From NCBI GenBank assembly GCA_000381605.1, contig KB906756.1, positions 62,001 through 126,000 of the forward strand: DNA of 64,000 nucleotides, given 5' to 3'. Origin of the DNA: Acidobacteriaceae bacterium KBS 89. GTDB lineage: Bacteria > Acidobacteriota > Terriglobia > Terriglobales > Acidobacteriaceae. The position numbers and the translations under genes were made by a program. The notes under the pieces are model-generated. The model worked only from the letters and a program-made list of their open reading frames with translations, had not been told where the DNA came from and searched no databases. Positions 8,828 through 14,990 of the stretch are shown here, in pieces; position 1 is the first letter of the stretch; the number at the start of each line of letters is the position of its first letter.

Positions 8828-9523
8828 TCATTTGATTGTTTTAGGTGGTGAAAGGCCCACGCGAAAGAGCACCGCGATGATGCGGAATCCGGCTTTGAGG
8901 CTGGCCTGGAGGTCGCCGGAGACCTTGGACGTGCCGCCTATGCGCTTGCGGTAGTCGACGGGAATTTCCAGGGTGCGGAGATGGTGCTGGGCGGCCTTGA
9001 TCTGCATCTCGAGGTTCCAGCCGTAGGTGAGTTCTGACATTTGTAACTGGTCGAGTGACGTTCTACGAATGGCCCGGAATGGTCCCATATCGGTGTAGCG
9101 GCCTTTGCCCAGAAGGCGAAGGAGACTGCCTACTAGGTGGCCGGCGAATCTCTGAGAGAAGAGCATGGATCCGGGTTCGCGTGTGCCGCGGTTGCGGGAG
9201 CCGATGACGAAGTCGGCTTCGCCGTTTTGGATGGGGGTGATGAGACGCGGGAGGTCCGCGATGACGTCGGAGCCGTCGCCGTCCATGTAGACGAGGATGG
9301 TGCTTGTCGGAAGCGCGGCGTTCGAGCCGGCGAGGCAGGCGGCTCCGTAGCCGCGTGGCGACTGGATGACGCGGGCCCCGGCGGCATGAGCTATGGAAGC
9401 TGTCGCATCAGTGCTGCCATTGTCCACGACGATGCACTCGGCGATGAGGTGCCACGGCATCTCGGAGACGACGTGACCGATAGATTCGGCTTCGTTTAAC
9501 GCGGGGATGATGATCGAGATCAC
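8828..9523 (-). CDS. Family 2 glycosyltransferase
   Basis: A 231-residue GT-A enzyme, dolichyl-phosphate-mannose-synthase-like. The N-terminus ISIIIPALNEAESIG is the nucleotide-sugar strand. The DGS/DGDGSD region (VYMDGDGSDVIADLPRL) holds the metal-binding acidic residues, and VIGSRNRG and YTDMGPFRAIRR follow as in polyprenyl-phosphate glycosyltransferases. There is no clear C-terminal membrane segment. GTG 9523 overlaps the radical SAM stop by four bases (GTGA), which fixes the start and shows translational coupling. It is the last gene of the five-gene operon from 13637 and probably loads a lipid carrier with a sugar. Confidence 0.88.
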   Translation of the reverse strand: MISIIIPALNEAESIGHVVSEMPWHLIAECIVVDNGSTDATASIAHAAGARVIQSPRGYGAACLAGSNAALPTSTILVYMDGDGSDVIADLPRLITPIQNGEADFVIGSRNRGTREPGSMLFSQRFAGHLVGSLLRLLGKGRYTDMGPFRAIRRTSLDQLQMSELTYGWNLEMQIKAAQHHLRTLEIPVDYRKRIGGTSKVSGDLQASLKAGFRIIAVLFRVGLSPPKTIK

Positions 9524-10656
9524 AGGCTCCAGCGGAGTCCGCAGTTGGCGCAGGCGGGAGGTGGAGAGCTGGTAAGAAGTCCTTCGCGGAAGCGCTGGTA
9601 TTCCGGGCCATTCCAGATCTCGCGGAGACTGTTTTGCGTGGCGTCGCCGAGCGTGAAGCTGCCATATCCCTTCATGCTGAAGGGGGCGATGCAGCATGGC
9701 AGGACGCGGCCGTTGGCGGTGATGTACATCAGGGACCAGGGACGCCGGCAGAGCGACCAGGGACTGTCGGAGCGCTGCATCTTGATGGACTCGCCGGGAT
9801 CGACTGCGCCGGAGGCTGAGAACATGACGCCAAGTTCCTTCGCGATGGATTCGGCTTCGTGAATGAGCGCCTCTTCCCGTTCTGTAGTGTGTTCGAAGAG
9901 AGCAGACTCGGCACGTGCGAGGGATTTGTCGCTCATGGGGTCATCAAAGAAGACGAGACGCTGGAGGTAGACCTCGGTGACGCCGATGGAGTGGGCGAGG
10001 CGGACAAAGTTCGGAAGCTGGTCGACGGTTTCGCGGAGGCCGGTGAGCCAGAGAGAGACGCGGGGCTTGGGAGCGTTGAGCTCACGCTGAAGTTGCGTGA
10101 AGGTTTTGACGTTGGCAACTATCTTGTCGAAGAAGTCCTTGCCGCGGACCATTTGAAAGACCTCGGATTCGGCTGCGTCGAGGGAGACACGGAGCTCGTC
10201 GAGGCCGGCTTCGATGAGGGCGCGACCGTTGGCTTTGGTGAGTAACGTTCCATTGGTGTTGAAGAGGACATAGATGTTGCGGTCCTTCAGATATTTCACT
10301 CGCTGGGCGAGATCTTTCACCAACATTGGCTCGCCGATACCGTGAAGCACGACACGCGCGATGTTGGGATACTGATCGATCAGCGAGGTGAAGAGCTGCC
10401 ATGGCATGTCGGCCTCGGGTTCGAGTTGCTCGTAGGTGCGGGGGCATGTGGTGCAGAGGAGGTTGCAGCGATTGGTGGTCTCGAGATAGAGGCAGACTGG
10501 TTCGTGCTGGACGACGGAGTTCAGTTGCGCTTCGGGCTTCTCGAAGTAGCGGCGCATGCGGTTCTTCTCTTCCTCGGCCTGTTGAGCGGCAGGGTTCAGC
10601 TTGTCTCCTTTTTCGAGGAGATCGTCGGGAGGAATGATGGGAAGGAGTGTGCTCAT
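9520..10656 (-). CDS. Radical SAM protein with SPASM-type C-terminus
   Basis: A 378-residue enzyme. The [4Fe-4S]-SAM motif is CNLLCTTC (CX3CX2C), preceded by YLETTNR. A GIGEP motif and NTNGTLLT follow, as in the partial TIM barrel of the superfamily. The C-terminal 80 residues contain CRRPWSL, VLPCC and CANCG, a SPASM/twitch-type auxiliary cluster arrangement. ATG 10656 overlaps the preceding gene by four bases (ATGA). The position between two glycosyltransferases suggests modification of a sugar or a lipid-linked intermediate rather than a peptide; no small peptide precursor gene was found nearby. The substrate is unknown. Confidence 0.88.
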   Translation of the reverse strand: MSTLLPIIPPDDLLEKGDKLNPAAQQAEEEKNRMRRYFEKPEAQLNSVVQHEPVCLYLETTNRCNLLCTTCPRTYEQLEPEADMPWQLFTSLIDQYPNIARVVLHGIGEPMLVKDLAQRVKYLKDRNIYVLFNTNGTLLTKANGRALIEAGLDELRVSLDAAESEVFQMVRGKDFFDKIVANVKTFTQLQRELNAPKPRVSLWLTGLRETVDQLPNFVRLAHSIGVTEVYLQRLVFFDDPMSDKSLARAESALFEHTTEREEALIHEAESIAKELGVMFSASGAVDPGESIKMQRSDSPWSLCRRPWSLMYITANGRVLPCCIAPFSMKGYGSFTLGDATQNSLREIWNGPEYQRFREGLLTSSPPPACANCGLRWSL

Positions 10657-12092
10657 GGGGTTACGCTCGCTGTGGTGTGTTGGACGAAGAGAATGCGATG
10701 AAGAGGCCAGCGCTTGAGCGTTAATTGGATGAGGAACGCCGCGAAGACGGCAGCATAGAGAATTTCGTTGGCAAGAAACATCTTTGGGCCGGGGTCTGCC
10801 AGCGCCGTGGTGTAGAGGTAGAAGAAGCCGAGCAGATAGGTGAGGACTGGCGGGTTCGGCATGAGGGTGAAAAACGGAACCAGCCAGATGATGTACCAGG
10901 CGTAGTGGGGAGAGAAGAGGAACATCAGAGTCGCAGCCAGCGCGAAGGAAGGTGGGAGGAAGGCGGCCTTTCCCTCGGGTCCGCCTTGCGCCGCGATACG
11001 CCAACACCACCAAAGGATCGCGGCGAAGATGGCGGCACAGAGGACGTAGTAGGCGGTTGGGGTGAGGCTGCGGAGGCCCGAGATTCGCTGCGCTAGTTCG
11101 AGGAGGAAGTAACGGCTCCCGGTAGCCATGCCCTCTTCTTTGACGTAGCCGCTGAGGAAGCCGAAGACCAGAAGCCCGACGCTCGAATAGGCCGCGTAGG
11201 CAAAGGCGATTGTCGCGGCGAGTGTCGCGGGCATCTTGAAATCGCCGCGACGATGGAGCGCTGGGAACAGTATGAGGGGATAGAGCTTGAGGAGGACAGC
11301 TATCGCCAGAAAAAGGCCCGTCAGGACCGGTTGTTTGCGGTAGCGGGCAAGGAGAGCGAGGGTGATGAAGGCCATGGCGGCGGAGTCGAGGTGGCCCGAA
11401 CCTGCGATCTCCCAGATGAGGATGGGGCACCAGGCGTAGAGGAGCGACTGCTCGCGGCGAACGCCCAGGTAGCGGAGGAGAGTGATGAGAGCGTACATCG
11501 TCACGCCTTCGAAGAGGACCATGACGGTCTTCATGAAGGTGATGGTAGGGGAGATCCCGGTGATGAGGTAGAAGAGCGCCTGCGCAGCGGGAGGGTAGAT
11601 GGTGTGGGCGTAGTCGCGGCGGTTGATGTTGTCGAAGGTGTCTTGGTGAGGCGCGCGCAGGAAGGAGAGGACCGCGTCGCCGGGAACGAAGCGGTAGGGG
11701 CTGATGTGGGCGTGCTGGACGATGCCGTCCCAGACATAACGGTAGATGTCGGAGGAGAGATAGGGCTCGGCGAAGAGAACGGCTATGCGACAGGCGATCG
11801 CGACGGCGAGAATGATGGGGAAGGTGAAACGATCGACGGGTTGGGTGAGGATGAGAAATGCCGCCGCGAGGTAGAGGATGCAGGACCAGCCGGAGACTCC
11901 GGAGAAGCCGATGGTGAAGTGGTGGTTGTACTCGCTGACGAGTTGGCGTGAGAGGAAGAAGAGTGCAGTGCCGATGAGGAGCAGCGCGGCGTTCGTCTGC
12001 CAGGGGCGAGCGATAGACCAGTGGAGGCCGCCGGAGCCACCGGGAGCAAGATTGGCTTGCGGGTTCTTTGCTGGATTGGTCACGGCGGTCAT
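10653..12092 (-). CDS. Multi-spanning GT-C mannosyltransferase-like protein (GT87/MptB-like)
   Basis: A 479-residue membrane protein with roughly ten or more hydrophobic helices. The loop after helix three reads SSDIYRYVWDGIVQHAHISP then YRFVP, followed later by HTIYPPAAQALFYL. This is the acidic catalytic loop pattern of polyprenyl-phosphate-mannose-dependent transferases (GT87, MptB-like). It would transfer a sugar from a lipid donor on the periplasmic face, matching the polyprenyl-sugar synthase role guessed for the GT2 in this operon. Its ATG overlaps the stop of the DUF2064 gene and its stop overlaps the radical SAM start. Confidence 0.8.
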   Translation of the reverse strand: MTAVTNPAKNPQANLAPGGSGGLHWSIARPWQTNAALLLIGTALFFLSRQLVSEYNHHFTIGFSGVSGWSCILYLAAAFLILTQPVDRFTFPIILAVAIACRIAVLFAEPYLSSDIYRYVWDGIVQHAHISPYRFVPGDAVLSFLRAPHQDTFDNINRRDYAHTIYPPAAQALFYLITGISPTITFMKTVMVLFEGVTMYALITLLRYLGVRREQSLLYAWCPILIWEIAGSGHLDSAAMAFITLALLARYRKQPVLTGLFLAIAVLLKLYPLILFPALHRRGDFKMPATLAATIAFAYAAYSSVGLLVFGFLSGYVKEEGMATGSRYFLLELAQRISGLRSLTPTAYYVLCAAIFAAILWWCWRIAAQGGPEGKAAFLPPSFALAATLMFLFSPHYAWYIIWLVPFFTLMPNPPVLTYLLGFFYLYTTALADPGPKMFLANEILYAAVFAAFLIQLTLKRWPLHRILFVQHTTASVTP

Positions 12093-12871
12093 CGTCGATC
12101 GCTTCCCTGCTCGTTGAGGATTCGTAGAAAATTACGAGTGTGTTCTGCGGGGTAGCCGGGGATAGTCGCGAAGGTTGGTGGGGTGCCGTGGAGGAGTTCG
12201 GCGGTCAGGATGTCGAGGGTGGCTGCGTCGTCCACGTCGTACCAGAGGGGGAGAACGGTCGTTTCGATTTTTACGGATTTCAGAGCGGCGATCGTTTCGG
12301 CAAAGACGCTGGTGGTGCTCCAGGTGATGTTGGTGAATGGCTCGGTGTGGGCGCGCTTGAGACCGATTAGGTAGTAACCGCCGTCGTGGGCAGGACCGAG
12401 GACAACGCGGTCGCCTGGTCTTTCAAGCTCGGCGACGGCTTGCTCGAATGCAGCGGCAGGGACGGTGGGGGAGTCGGAGTCGATGAGGCAGACGCTGCCG
12501 TAGCCGCAAGCGAAAAGGTCTTGGGCCGTGGCAAGGAGGCGTTCGCCGAAGCCGTCGCAGCGTTGCGGGATGAGGGCGAAGTCTGCAGGGAGGAGGTTGT
12601 CGAAGAGGGCTTCGTCGCCGATGGGGGTGTAGGAGATGATGCCGGCAGCTTTGCCCGATGTAGTGAGTACGGCTATGTTTTCGGCGGTGTCCTGGAGAAA
12701 GCAGATGTTGATGGCCGCGGCCTGATCGAGGGTGAGCGGCGGCGCAAGGCGGGTCTTGACCTTGCCCGAACGCGGCGCCTTTGCCATGACAGCGAGAGCG
12801 CACTGGGTCGCACGCGCGGCGATGGGGTTCGCGGGATTGAGTATCGGATATGGCATCGTGGCAGCAGGCAT
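12089..12871 (-). CDS. DUF2064/TIGR04282-family glycosyltransferase
   Basis: A 260-residue cytosolic GT-A-like protein. ALAVMAKAPRSGKVKTRLAP is the N-terminal nucleotide-binding motif shared with NDP-sugar pyrophosphorylases and the TIGR04282 family. VCLIDSDSPTVPAAAFEQA carries the metal-binding acidic residues, and VVLGPAHDGGYYLIGLK is the family hallmark. Known relatives are annotated near arsenosugar genes, but no arsM-like cysteines are obvious in the neighbouring methyltransferase. ATG 12871 lies 4 bases after the methyltransferase stop; ATG 12856 is an alternative. The upstream in-frame extension to 12970 overlaps the methyltransferase and is rejected. Confidence 0.85.
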   Translation of the reverse strand: MPAATMPYPILNPANPIAARATQCALAVMAKAPRSGKVKTRLAPPLTLDQAAAINICFLQDTAENIAVLTTSGKAAGIISYTPIGDEALFDNLLPADFALIPQRCDGFGERLLATAQDLFACGYGSVCLIDSDSPTVPAAAFEQAVAELERPGDRVVLGPAHDGGYYLIGLKRAHTEPFTNITWSTTSVFAETIAALKSVKIETTVLPLWYDVDDAATLDILTAELLHGTPPTFATIPGYPAEHTRNFLRILNEQGSDRR

Positions 12872-12875
12872 TGAA

Positions 12876-13637
12876 CTAGGCCGCGCTCCAATCGGCAGGC
12901 TGTCGTTCACCCAGAGAGTTGGCGAGGGCGGCGTGGGCTTTTTCGCAGACAGCGTACTGATACCAGCCATCGTACTGTAAATCGACGCCTCCCCAGGACT
13001 GAGAGTGGATGAGAGTGGCGAAGTCAGGGGCTGTCATGACATCGGCCTGACGAGGCTCGCGATATTTTCCAGCGGGTGTGCTGGTCAATTTGGAGAGGAG
13101 CCACATGCAACTAAGCGGTATACGCGTGCGGAAGCCGGAGGTCGGTTCGGCGATGAAACATCGGCCGCCGGGACGCAGGACACGAAAGATCTCGCTGAGG
13201 ACAGCATCTCGATTCGCAACGATGAGGAAGAGCCGAGAGACGACGACGGCATCGATAGAGTTGGAGGGATCGCTGAGAGCGTGGACGTCGCCGTGAGCGA
13301 AGGTGCAGTTCTGGAGGCTGCGGCTGGCCGCGCGGGACTGTGCCCTCGCGATGAGGCGGCGGGAGAGGTCGACGCCGGTGGTGTGGATCTGGGGGTACTC
13401 CTGTGAGAGTCGACAGGCATAGAAGCCGGGGCCGCAGCCAAGCTCAAGAACGTGAGTTCCGGGGGGTGGACCATCGGCAGGAAAGAGAGCCCGGGTGATC
13501 TCCTGGGTGTGGTCGCGGAAGAGGTACTCGCGACAGAGTGCGTAGAACCAGGAACAGCCTTCAAAGAGGCTGTCGGGGGGACGCCCAGAGGGCTGAGGGA
13601 ATGTTCGGCCGTACATTCCGCAGTTGCTTGGCTCCAT
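12876..13637 (-). CDS. Class I SAM-dependent methyltransferase
   Basis: A 253-residue methyltransferase of the Methyltransf_11 type. Motif I is VLELGCGPGFYACRLSQ, with the acidic residue of motif II in TTGVDLSRRLI, then FAHGDVHAL and FRVLRPGGRCFIAEP. It is the first gene of the five-gene minus-strand operon that continues to 8828, so its substrate is likely the same sugar or lipid product. Nothing in the C-terminal part identifies the acceptor. Confidence 0.85.
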   Translation of the reverse strand: MEPSNCGMYGRTFPQPSGRPPDSLFEGCSWFYALCREYLFRDHTQEITRALFPADGPPPGTHVLELGCGPGFYACRLSQEYPQIHTTGVDLSRRLIARAQSRAASRSLQNCTFAHGDVHALSDPSNSIDAVVVSRLFLIVANRDAVLSEIFRVLRPGGRCFIAEPTSGFRTRIPLSCMWLLSKLTSTPAGKYREPRQADVMTAPDFATLIHSQSWGGVDLQYDGWYQYAVCEKAHAALANSLGERQPADWSAA

Positions 13638-13955: not shown

Positions 13956-14990
13956 CTAGGCTACGTCACTCCAATCGAGAATGACCTTGCCGGAGTTGCC
14001 CGAGCGCATGACGTCGAAGCCCTCTTCGTAGTTGCGCCAGTTCATCCGATGGGTGATTACGCCTGAGATATCGAGTCCGCTTTCGAGCATGACGGTCATC
14101 TTGTACCAGGTCTCGTACATCTCACGCCCGTAGATGCCGCGAATGGTGAGCTGGTTGAAGACGACCTGGTTCCAGTTGATGGAGATGTCCTCCGATGGGA
14201 TGCCGAGCATGGCGATCTTCGCGCCGTGGCTCATGTTGGCGAGCATGTCACGGAAGGCGCTGGGGTTGCCAGACATCTCGAGCCCGACGTCGAAGCCTTC
14301 CTGCATGCCGAGCTGCTGCTGGATCTGCGGCAGTGGTGTGGCTCGCGGGTCGACCGCAAGGGTCACGCCCACCTTTTCGGCCAGCTTGCGGCGGTATTCA
14401 TTGGGATCGGAGATGACGACGTGACGCGCGCCGGCGTGACGGGCGACGGCGGCGGCCATGATGCCAATCGGGCCTGCCCCGGTGACGAGGACGTCTTCGC
14501 CAAGCACCGGGAAGGCAAGCGCCGTGTGGACGGCGTTACCGAGAGGATCGAAGATGGCTGCGATCTCACGAGGCACGCCGGGGCTGTGAATCCAGATGTT
14601 GGACATCGGGAGGACGACATACTCCGCGAAGGCACCGTTGCGGTTTACGCCGACTCCGAGGGTATGGGCGCAGAGATGCCGGCGGCCTGCGAGACAGTTG
14701 CGGCAGCGTCCGCAGACGACGTGGCCTTCGCCGCTGACGAGTTGTCCAATGGGGATGTCGGTAACGTTGGAGCCGGTCGCGACGACCTCGCCGACAAATT
14801 CATGGCCGATAGTGAGGCCCTTCCTGATGGTGGAGCGGGCCCAGGCGTCCCACTCATAGATGTGGAGGTCGGTGCCGCAGATGCCGGTGGCGAGGACTCG
14901 AATCTTAACGTCGTTGATGCCCATCTCAGGCTCGGGAACATCCTCGAGCCACAGGCCGCGTTCTTCGCGGCTCTTTACCAATGCCTTCAC
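13956..14990 (-). CDS. tdh: L-threonine 3-dehydrogenase
   Basis: A zinc-dependent medium-chain dehydrogenase, 344 residues, oxidising threonine to 2-amino-3-ketobutyrate with NAD+. The sequence shows the catalytic zinc site ([21 protein letters not shown]), the four structural-zinc cysteines ([15 protein letters not shown]) and the Rossmann motif [29 protein letters not shown] is characteristic of Tdh. The usual partner kbl is not in the window, so glycine formation needs an unlinked gene, or aminoketobutyrate decays to aminoacetone. Single-gene unit with its own upstream region. Confidence 0.93.

Follow-up and report, generated by a model that had tools for sequence, protein, structure and literature searches.

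In the tubercle bacillus, MtxS makes methylthioxylose (MTX)-polyprenyl phosphate and MtxT moves MTX to lipoarabinomannan (PMC8780516). This route starts from 5'-methylthioadenosine (MTA), and a 2024 paper calls it unclear whether MTX-type modification exists beyond lipoarabinomannan (PMC11127046). A sulfoxide form, MSX, has been reported on lipoarabinomannan (PMC8531672). Here we describe a five-gene operon of the soil acidobacterium Acidobacteriaceae bacterium KBS 89, contained in a stretch of 64,000 nucleotides (the window; contig KB906756.1, positions 62,001 to 126,000), which encodes a methyltransferase, a DUF2064 protein, a membrane glycosyltransferase of the GT-C type, a radical SAM (rSAM) protein, and a GT2 glycosyltransferase. 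The MTX locus of the tubercle bacillus presumably also holds a 5'-methylthioadenosine phosphorylase (MTAP), an epimerase, and a DUF2064 gene, and the title of one study, listed among the references of PMC5911930, names a natural carbohydrate substrate for the methionine sulfoxide reductase A of this bacterium.

The five genes probably serve to build and transfer a lipid-linked sugar, for which the rSAM protein would act as epimerase or dehydrogenase. This agrees with a preliminary description of the operon, in which the GT2 and GT-C enzymes were paired as donor synthase and transferase, and in which sugar tailoring by the rSAM protein and a surface glycan or lipid as target, both of which still appear likely, were proposed. 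For the full version, in which the operon makes a nucleotide-activated, probably 5-methylthio-substituted pentose that is added to an envelope glycan or lipid, we would put the chances at about even.

Operon conservation and interchange of the rSAM gene

The operon lies on the minus strand of the window from 13637 to 8828, in a genome of 6.0 Mb (G000). Its first gene (12876..13637, 253 aa) encodes a class I SAM-dependent methyltransferase (PF13649, 82.5 bits), followed by the DUF2064/TIGR04282 protein, a predicted nucleotidylyltransferase for pentose-1-phosphate (12089..12871 with the ATG at 12871, 260 aa), which scores 103.7 bits with PF09837 and, with 162.5 bits against a cut-off of 134, belongs to the arsenosugar-associated family TIGR04282. 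The third product is a GT87-type GT-C membrane glycosyltransferase (10653..12092, 479 aa; PF09594, 48.3 bits, over the gathering score of 25) and a predicted user of a polyprenyl-phosphate sugar. The rSAM protein with its auxiliary-cluster domain (9520..10656, 378 aa; Radical_SAM 61.2 bits, SPASM 62.4 bits) is a predicted nucleotide-sugar epimerase, and the GT2 (8828..9523 with a GTG start at 9523, 231 aa; PF00535, 67.6 bits) a predicted polyprenyl-phosphate pentose synthase. As already described, the genes are packed tightly, with one 4-base gap at the first junction and 4-base overlaps (ATGA, ATGA, GTGA) at the next three.

Because the order DUF2064, GT-C, rSAM, GT2 recurs at many loci of two phyla, the Acidobacteria and the Alphaproteobacteria, the arrangement is beyond chance, and as the co-occurrence check brought out, gene order is conserved outside this genome. 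When named genomes were scanned with an alignment of the rSAM protein, 379 relatives came up, and the 80 best loci were retained. Within these 80, the rSAM proteins of Edaphobacter, Granulicella, and relatives are 84-91% identical to that of the window, strains of these two genera being the nearest named loci, one acidobacterial metagenome-assembled genome (MAG) reaches 69%, and the remaining loci, at 60-67%, are mostly from Alphaproteobacteria (Bradyrhizobium, Xanthobacter, Methylobacterium, Bosea, Rhodomicrobium, Acidocella, and MAGs). Locus groups were set by locus number, and the acidobacterial group includes L021, a MAG labelled Rhodanobacteraceae. Families in the flanks were counted as single-linkage BLAST clusters of called genes; three of 86 loci, in which no rSAM gene was clustered, were dropped, and L010-L012 were left out of the locus comparisons (L010 and L012 duplicate L016 and L017; L011 was also omitted). 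Where the rSAM gene is flanked by 7 kb or more on each side, methyltransferase, DUF2064, GT-C, and GT2 genes are all present at 11 of 12 loci of the acidobacterial group, the exception being L028, where the rSAM gene stands alone and which was scored as a miss. At the 36 other loci with such flanks, DUF2064 and GT2 genes were found 35 times each, a GT-C gene 29 times, a DoxX-like protein 23 times, a nucleoside phosphorylase 19 times, and a YedY-like molybdenum oxidoreductase and its cytochrome b 15 times each. Of 62 genomes in the window's genus, 21 carry the rSAM gene. It is rare in wider samples that include the window genome, with 3 genomes out of 100 for the family and 5 out of 297 for the phylum.

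In three genomes of the same genus (G407, G414, and G187), genes for cytochrome b, YedY, methyltransferase, DUF2064, GT-C, and GT2 follow one another without an rSAM gene; convergent to the GT2 gene lies an extended short-chain dehydrogenase/reductase (SDR) of the nucleoside-diphosphate (NDP)-sugar type. Among themselves these SDRs share 85-87% identity; with the epimerase of a Kitasatospora cluster discussed below they share 37-38% (E about 1e-66), and they match the models of LegB, dTDP-glucose dehydratase, and GalE, every one under its cut-off. In the tree of DUF2064 proteins, the three rows group with the window's rows (96/97), inside an acidobacterial clade of 21 rows (99/98). In that of GT-C proteins they fall into a 20-row clade (97/100), beside rSAM rows (92/88) that differ from those in the DUF2064 tree, and in that of GT2 proteins into a clade of 15 rows (100/100) in which the branching order is not resolved. 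Rows under the set minimum length or with stops were dropped from the trees, and some clade rows are loci of no assigned variant (L121-L125 being among the unassigned). Because the other acidobacterial and alphaproteobacterial rows are of the rSAM type, the simplest reading of these sequences is that an SDR displaced the rSAM protein in an orthologous operon. The presence of an SDR beside the rSAM-less sister operons makes epimerisation of a nucleotide sugar the most likely role of the rSAM protein. The association of rSAM and operon survives unlinking, because Acidipila EB88 has its rSAM gene (L028) and an operon of methyltransferase, DUF2064, GT-C, and GT2 without rSAM (L127) at different places.

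Several points weigh against assigning the rSAM protein in this way. The interchange indicates related roles and not an identical reaction, and the SDR was read in three genomes only. Of the nine rSAM-negative genomes with a strong YedY match, three show the SDR operon and six were not assigned (G254 was left unread). The loci of G386, G393, and G401 are truncated by the ends of their contigs, in G389 only GT-C and DUF2064 are seen, and G421 has methyltransferase, DUF2064, and GT-C with an SDR of 42-43% identity about 2.4 kb off. In favour of the assignment, a search confined to the 86 rSAM loci found no epimerase of the actinobacterial type at E<=1e-5.

Some further features of these loci may be recorded. 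The seven of the 36 loci that lack GT-C are the same seven that encode a membrane protein of the 665-aa type. A membrane protein of about 665 residues occurs at nine loci without GT87 (L061:16038-18035, L055, L064, L066, L070, L074, L076, L078, and L093), gave no Pfam match in the two members tested, and is possibly another GT-C. The rSAM protein of L021 is 87% identical to that of the window and the other operon genes of this locus group among Acidobacteria in the trees; the contig is probably mis-binned. Five Edaphobacter and Granulicella loci (L016-L020) have a small gene of about 158-190 aa inserted between rSAM and GT2, which is not in the window and, judged by eye, looks like effector-binding (GyrI-like) proteins. 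Upstream of the operon lies a zinc-dependent dehydrogenase gene (window 13956-14990) that has relatives at 10 compared loci, probably as shared synteny.

Predicted activities of the DUF2064 and rSAM proteins

The DUF2064 protein had been taken for a glycosyltransferase. By fold and PDB profiles it resembles nucleotidylyltransferases (FbiD/CofC, IspD, TarI, GlmU) instead, and it is probably a nucleotidylyltransferase itself, an activity predicted from the fold. Its predicted model (pLDDT 94.7) best matches the DUF2064 structure 3cgx (Z 25.8, rmsd 2.7, 225 aligned residues), which is named a putative nucleotide-diphospho-sugar transferase, followed by the probable nucleotidyltransferase 2i5e (Z 20.2), the 3-phosphoglycerate guanylyltransferase 7p97 (Z 19.7), and Rv2983 (6bwh, Z 18.4). 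IspD, TarI, and GlmU reach Z of about 13-14, and FbiD/CofC are likewise resembled. With 3cgx excepted, the best 50 structural matches are named as proven or probable nucleotidylyltransferases or bifunctional GlmU; no glycosyltransferase is found in these 50, save 3cgx by its name, a scope that excludes nothing. In the PDB profile search, 3cgx is followed by a sole further match, the 2-phospho-L-lactate guanylyltransferase 6bwg (E 1e-3).

In the rSAM protein, the three cysteines of the CxxxCxxC motif for the SAM-binding cluster (C64, C68, and C71; 10444..10467, minus strand) and five of the auxiliary-cluster region (C303, C321, C322, C369, and C372; 9541..9750, minus strand) are invariant across 35 aligned sequences, and in the PDB profile alignment the C-terminal region falls on the auxiliary-cluster segment of BtrN. 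The 'SPASM' part is short, and because of the invariant cysteines and the alignment to the BtrN segment one auxiliary cluster seems more likely than two. The CxxxCxxC motif together with the C-terminal cysteines corresponds to the BtrN-like pattern of a single auxiliary cluster, the number being deduced from the sequence. The earlier designation as a SPASM radical SAM protein is thus retained for the domain match itself and has to be modified for the short domain and its probable cluster content. In PDB profile searches, BtrN matches over both the SAM-cluster and the auxiliary-cluster parts (E 1e-14), and further matches are MoaA, tetraether synthase, PqqE, DesII, cytosylglucuronate decarboxylase, and 8wm2 (AbmM), several of which act on sugars or cyclitols, among them BtrN, DesII, and cytosylglucuronate decarboxylase. 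The predicted model is modest (mean pLDDT 71.9), and SkfB (Z 22.6), DesII (22.5), and BlsE (21.6) are tied at the top of its structural matches. A radical SAM sugar epimerase is not found in the 50 best structural matches, where the sole radical SAM epimerase is EpeE, which acts on a peptide; this scope excludes nothing. As judged from homology, both sugar enzymes and peptide maturases are possible, and it is the context that decides.

The assignment as an epimerase has to be weighed here against a maturase of a protein or cofactor, for example of a molybdenum enzyme, that would stand in a glycosylation operon for another reason. The best NCBIfam matches of the rSAM protein are indeed metalloenzyme maturases, TIGR04317 with 155.6 bits and TIGR04311 with 138.8 bits, both under cut-off (380 for TIGR04317, the model of the tungsten-cofactor oxidoreductase rSAM maturase), its top structural match SkfB, tied with DesII, is a peptide maturase, and YedY co-occurs with the operon. 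The lone rSAM gene of Acidipila EB88 (L028:11430-12575) adjoins a gene that, judged by eye, resembles moaA. However, in the operons with YedY an SDR is present and the rSAM protein is missing. The interchange with the SDR therefore lowers the peptide or metalloenzyme maturase to a very improbable explanation.

The nature of the sugar

On a plasmid of Arthrobacter (U41), successive genes are annotated as GT2, DUF2064, methyltransferase, GT87, a phosphorylase of the MTAP family, and an epimerase, and after one intervening gene a molybdenum oxidoreductase bearing a cytochrome b561 part is encoded. A Kitasatospora (NBC_00039) plasmid has, by annotation, S-methyl-5'-thioadenosine phosphorylase, two molybdenum oxidoreductases, cytochrome b, methyltransferase, DUF2064, and an epimerase, together with a GT-C annotated as hypothetical and an unannotated GT2 beside DUF2064. 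In Nonomuraea the genes for GT2, epimerase, GT-C, DUF2064, and methyltransferase are found, with no MTAP match within the stretch read, and a plasmid of M. abscessus (subsp. bolletii 50594) encodes GT2, TIGR04282, methyltransferase, and a molybdenum oxidoreductase. None of these four records contains an rSAM match at E<=1e-30. Compared with Arthrobacter, the GT2 of the window is 38% (E 7e-35), the GT-C 30% (5e-23), and the DUF2064 protein 29% (4e-16) identical; over all actinobacterial clusters the GT2 identities are 37-45%, and the GT-C is homologous to those of the Arthrobacter, Kitasatospora, Nonomuraea, and Miltoncostaea clusters. The methyltransferases recur across clusters in distinct forms, that of the window giving no BLAST match to those of the actinobacterial clusters at E<=1e-4. 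With their MTAP and epimerase, the Arthrobacter and Kitasatospora clusters point to a 5-methylthio-pentofuranose like the MTX cap. The window genome encodes an MTAP over the cut-off (TIGR01694, 321.5 against 274.85) that is unlinked to the operon.

A YedY/MsrP-like oxidoreductase accompanies the operon, which fits a sugar in sulfide and sulfoxide forms. YedY-like proteins were found in 34 of the 62 congeners, comprising all 21 rSAM-positive and 13 of the 41 rSAM-negative genomes (Fisher p 5.6e-8). Within three strata of ClpB identity, from which G000 and three genomes lacking a complete ClpB match are absent, the association has p values of 0.029, 0.029, and 0.018; a fourth stratum (n=4) is without rSAM. 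Nine of the 13 rSAM-negative genomes have strong YedY matches (E 1e-62 or better) and all still encode TIGR04282, which the four with weak matches do not. Counting G000, TIGR04282 is encoded in 10 of 10 genomes with a strong YedY match against 1 of 9 others (p 1.2e-4), a comparison from which Acidipila, which has TIGR04282, was omitted since it lay outside the YedY search. The YedY-like gene of the window genome is unlinked to the operon, and against the MsrP model the homologue at L014 reaches 73.8 bits (cut-off 207).

From these observations we infer a series of steps, of which each catalytic activity as well as the methylthio group and the acceptor are conditional. The unlinked MTAP would supply 5-methylthioribose-1-phosphate, which the DUF2064 protein would activate to an NDP-sugar. 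The rSAM protein would invert a ring carbinol (ribo to xylo would be a guess), which is the supposed job of the SDR in the sister operons, the GT2 would move the sugar onto polyprenyl phosphate, and the GT-C would transfer it to an acceptor outside the membrane. Reduction of the sugar's sulfoxide may fall to a YedY/MsrP-like oxidoreductase with cytochrome b561, whose genes lie away from the operon in this genome. The natural fusion of a GT87-type GT-C with a GT2 in Miltoncostaea oceani (L103:5708-7663) supports the pairing of the two glycosyltransferases.

The methylthio-pentose itself faces several difficulties. The operon of the window has no phosphorylase gene and the unlinked MTAP may be a housekeeping enzyme, the Arthrobacter phosphorylase is narrowly under the cut-off of the MTAP model (265.1 against 274.85), and a PNP_UDP_1 match is absent from the whole M. 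abscessus and Miltoncostaea records. The M. abscessus stretch has neither an rSAM protein nor such an epimerase. If the methylthio group derives from MTA, no place is left for the methyltransferase, and some alphaproteobacterial clusters carry selenium genes. In addition, TIGR04282 is present in one of five tested genomes without YedY (G411), and the tests of YedY co-occurrence use genome counts and ClpB strata and no species tree. It could be that the lipid-linked donor and the GT-C add an ordinary or otherwise modified sugar without a methylthio group, with the rSAM protein and the SDR as its dehydrogenase or epimerase. Neither the GT2/GT-C logic nor the nucleotidylyltransferase fold of DUF2064 nor the rSAM/SDR interchange needs sulfur, and the missing phosphorylase gene speaks for it. 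However, MTAP or another nucleoside phosphorylase recurs at 19 of the 36 full-flank loci outside the acidobacterial group and in the Arthrobacter and Kitasatospora clusters, and an MsrP-like oxidoreductase repeatedly accompanies the operon, so that we regard the sulfur-free sugar as rather doubtful.

Arsenosugar biosynthesis follows the general plan of a 5-substituted pentose. A similar sugar, with a metalloid on 5-deoxyribose that is activated by DUF2064 and transferred, and with the methyltransferase and the rSAM protein acting on the metalloid, would account for the score of TIGR04282 over its cut-off, for the best match of the methyltransferase, which is an arsenite methyltransferase model, and for the SelD and putative selenate transporter genes that adjoin the module in certain Alphaproteobacteria, as at L030. 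However, the ArsM models listed are far under cut-off for the methyltransferase (NF008823, 64.2 bits against 263), the GT2 reaches only 49.5 bits with TIGR04283 (cut-off 182), and SelD over its cut-off is absent from the window genome. ArsS (TIGR04167, cut-off 300) does not appear in the 25 best-scoring of 44 families matched, a list that ends at 36.7 bits, and within this scope the view that the rSAM protein is not ArsS-like holds. Because of these family cut-offs an arsenosugar- or selenosugar-like product is an unlikely alternative to the methylthio-pentose.

In some Alphaproteobacteria, the module adjoins SelD (often as a fusion of NADH dehydrogenase and SelD), a putative selenate ABC transporter, a second rSAM protein, and another methyltransferase. 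Such genes were found at L030:1751-12974 and at L037 (with the transporter TIGR04553), L043, L047, L048, L059, L065, L069, L077, L084, and L086; at L030, ten genes including SelD, the putative selenate transporter, and the module lie on one strand. One could imagine a selenium version of the sugar. An obligatory role of selenium was rejected as a general explanation, SelD over its cut-off being encoded in 13 of 30 rSAM-bearing genomes, in 1 of 60 congeners, and not in the window genome. Hopanoid tailoring was also considered, since many carriers of the rSAM module make hopanoids and the pair of rSAM and nucleoside phosphorylase recalls HpnH/HpnG, and was rejected, the cluster phosphorylase giving no HpnG match at E<=1e-8.

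A further set of genes was met beside GT2, GT-C, and DUF2064, namely homologues of Rv1679, Rv1680, and Rv1681 of the tubercle bacillus (L050:3592-6759, L103:4854-10953, and L126:3409-6584, from three phyla). Rv1681 has been listed as a possible molybdopterin protein and as a urine marker (PMC4202705). At the Bradyrhizobium locus L050, the module has in its vicinity members of the radical SAM family Rv1681 (497.5 bits, cut-off 380) and relatives of Rv1679 (437.9, cut-off 600) and Rv1680 (306.6, cut-off 400). Miltoncostaea has all three families under cut-off, with DUF2064, the fused GT-C and GT2, and a relative of the window rSAM protein, and G411, of the window's genus, has the trio at 474.9 (over cut-off), 420.9, and 312.6 bits (below), with GT-C, DUF2064, and GT2 and without a window-type rSAM protein. 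Among 32 rSAM-bearing genomes, 8 encode Rv1681-type proteins over the cut-off; these 8 are the whole Bradyrhizobium set tested, and the 12 acidobacterial genomes have none. At E<=1e-20 the family (NF049973) has no match in G000 or 11 other acidobacterial genomes. Because the trio sits with GT2, GT-C, and DUF2064 in Bradyrhizobium, Miltoncostaea, and G411, these neighbourhoods suggest that it serves this type of pathway. The widest proposal is a tentative one, to which we would give clearly less than even chances: a methylthio-pentose glycan pathway would exist beyond the mycobacteria, in Acidobacteria and Alphaproteobacteria, with the rSAM protein as an SDR-interchangeable radical epimerase and Rv1679-Rv1680-Rv1681-type genes (FadE16, an SBP-like protein, and 'MoeX') in the same kind of pathway.

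Comparison with known systems

A literature search, mostly outside subscription journals, found neither this gene set nor a methylthiopentose beyond mycobacteria among the matches listed. Related clusters resemble the mycobacterial MTX pathway, which bears in part on the earlier proviso that orthologous clusters might already be assigned to a known product. The loci include cultured, named environmental strains in which it can be asked whether MTX-type modification occurs outside lipoarabinomannan. As a natural experiment, the interchange of rSAM and SDR inside a single genus predicts a reaction for an uncharacterised radical SAM family, and the context of the Rv1679-Rv1681 homologues offers a testable pathway for three genes of the tubercle bacillus, a link that was unexpected.

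The arsenosugar pathway (TIGR04282, TIGR04283, ArsM, and ArsS) shares the TIGR04282 protein and the plan of a 5-substituted pentose, and differs in that the GT2 and methyltransferase of the window are below the model cut-offs and ArsS is not among the families listed. The sugar- and cyclitol-directed radical SAM enzymes BtrN, DesII, and BlsE resemble the rSAM protein in their PDB profile matches, the aligned auxiliary segment of BtrN, and the fold, although identity is low (16-24%) and a fold alone gives no substrate. The three-component periplasmic pentofuranose addition of Citrobacter likewise has a lipid-linked pentofuranose donor, a GT-C, and an auxiliary epimerase, whereas it begins at 5-phosphoribosyl 1-diphosphate (PRPP) and has a MATE flippase and a GT136 enzyme (PMC11127046), none of which is among the five genes of the window operon. 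The actinobacterial plasmid clusters of Arthrobacter, Kitasatospora, and M. abscessus are close in their GT2 (37-38% identical) and DUF2064 proteins (28-33%) and in the methyltransferase and molybdenum oxidoreductase alongside, the GT-C being homologous in the first two; unlike the window they have no rSAM protein, and Arthrobacter and Kitasatospora have an SDR epimerase and MTAP. The MTX pathway itself (MtxS, Rv0539; MtxT, Rv0541c) combines a polyprenyl-phosphate sugar synthase with a GT-C, the clusters related to the operon carry MTAP and an SDR epimerase, and the sulfoxide MSX fits an MsrP-like enzyme. This likeness is one of gene kinds and of homology to the actinobacterial clusters. In contrast to the tubercle bacillus, the host of the window is a Gram-negative acidobacterium, with an rSAM protein for the SDR and an additional methyltransferase. 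The lipid-linked sugar pathway would be of a known kind, probably of the methylthio-pentose type, with the radical enzyme in the place of the epimerase as its testable novelty.

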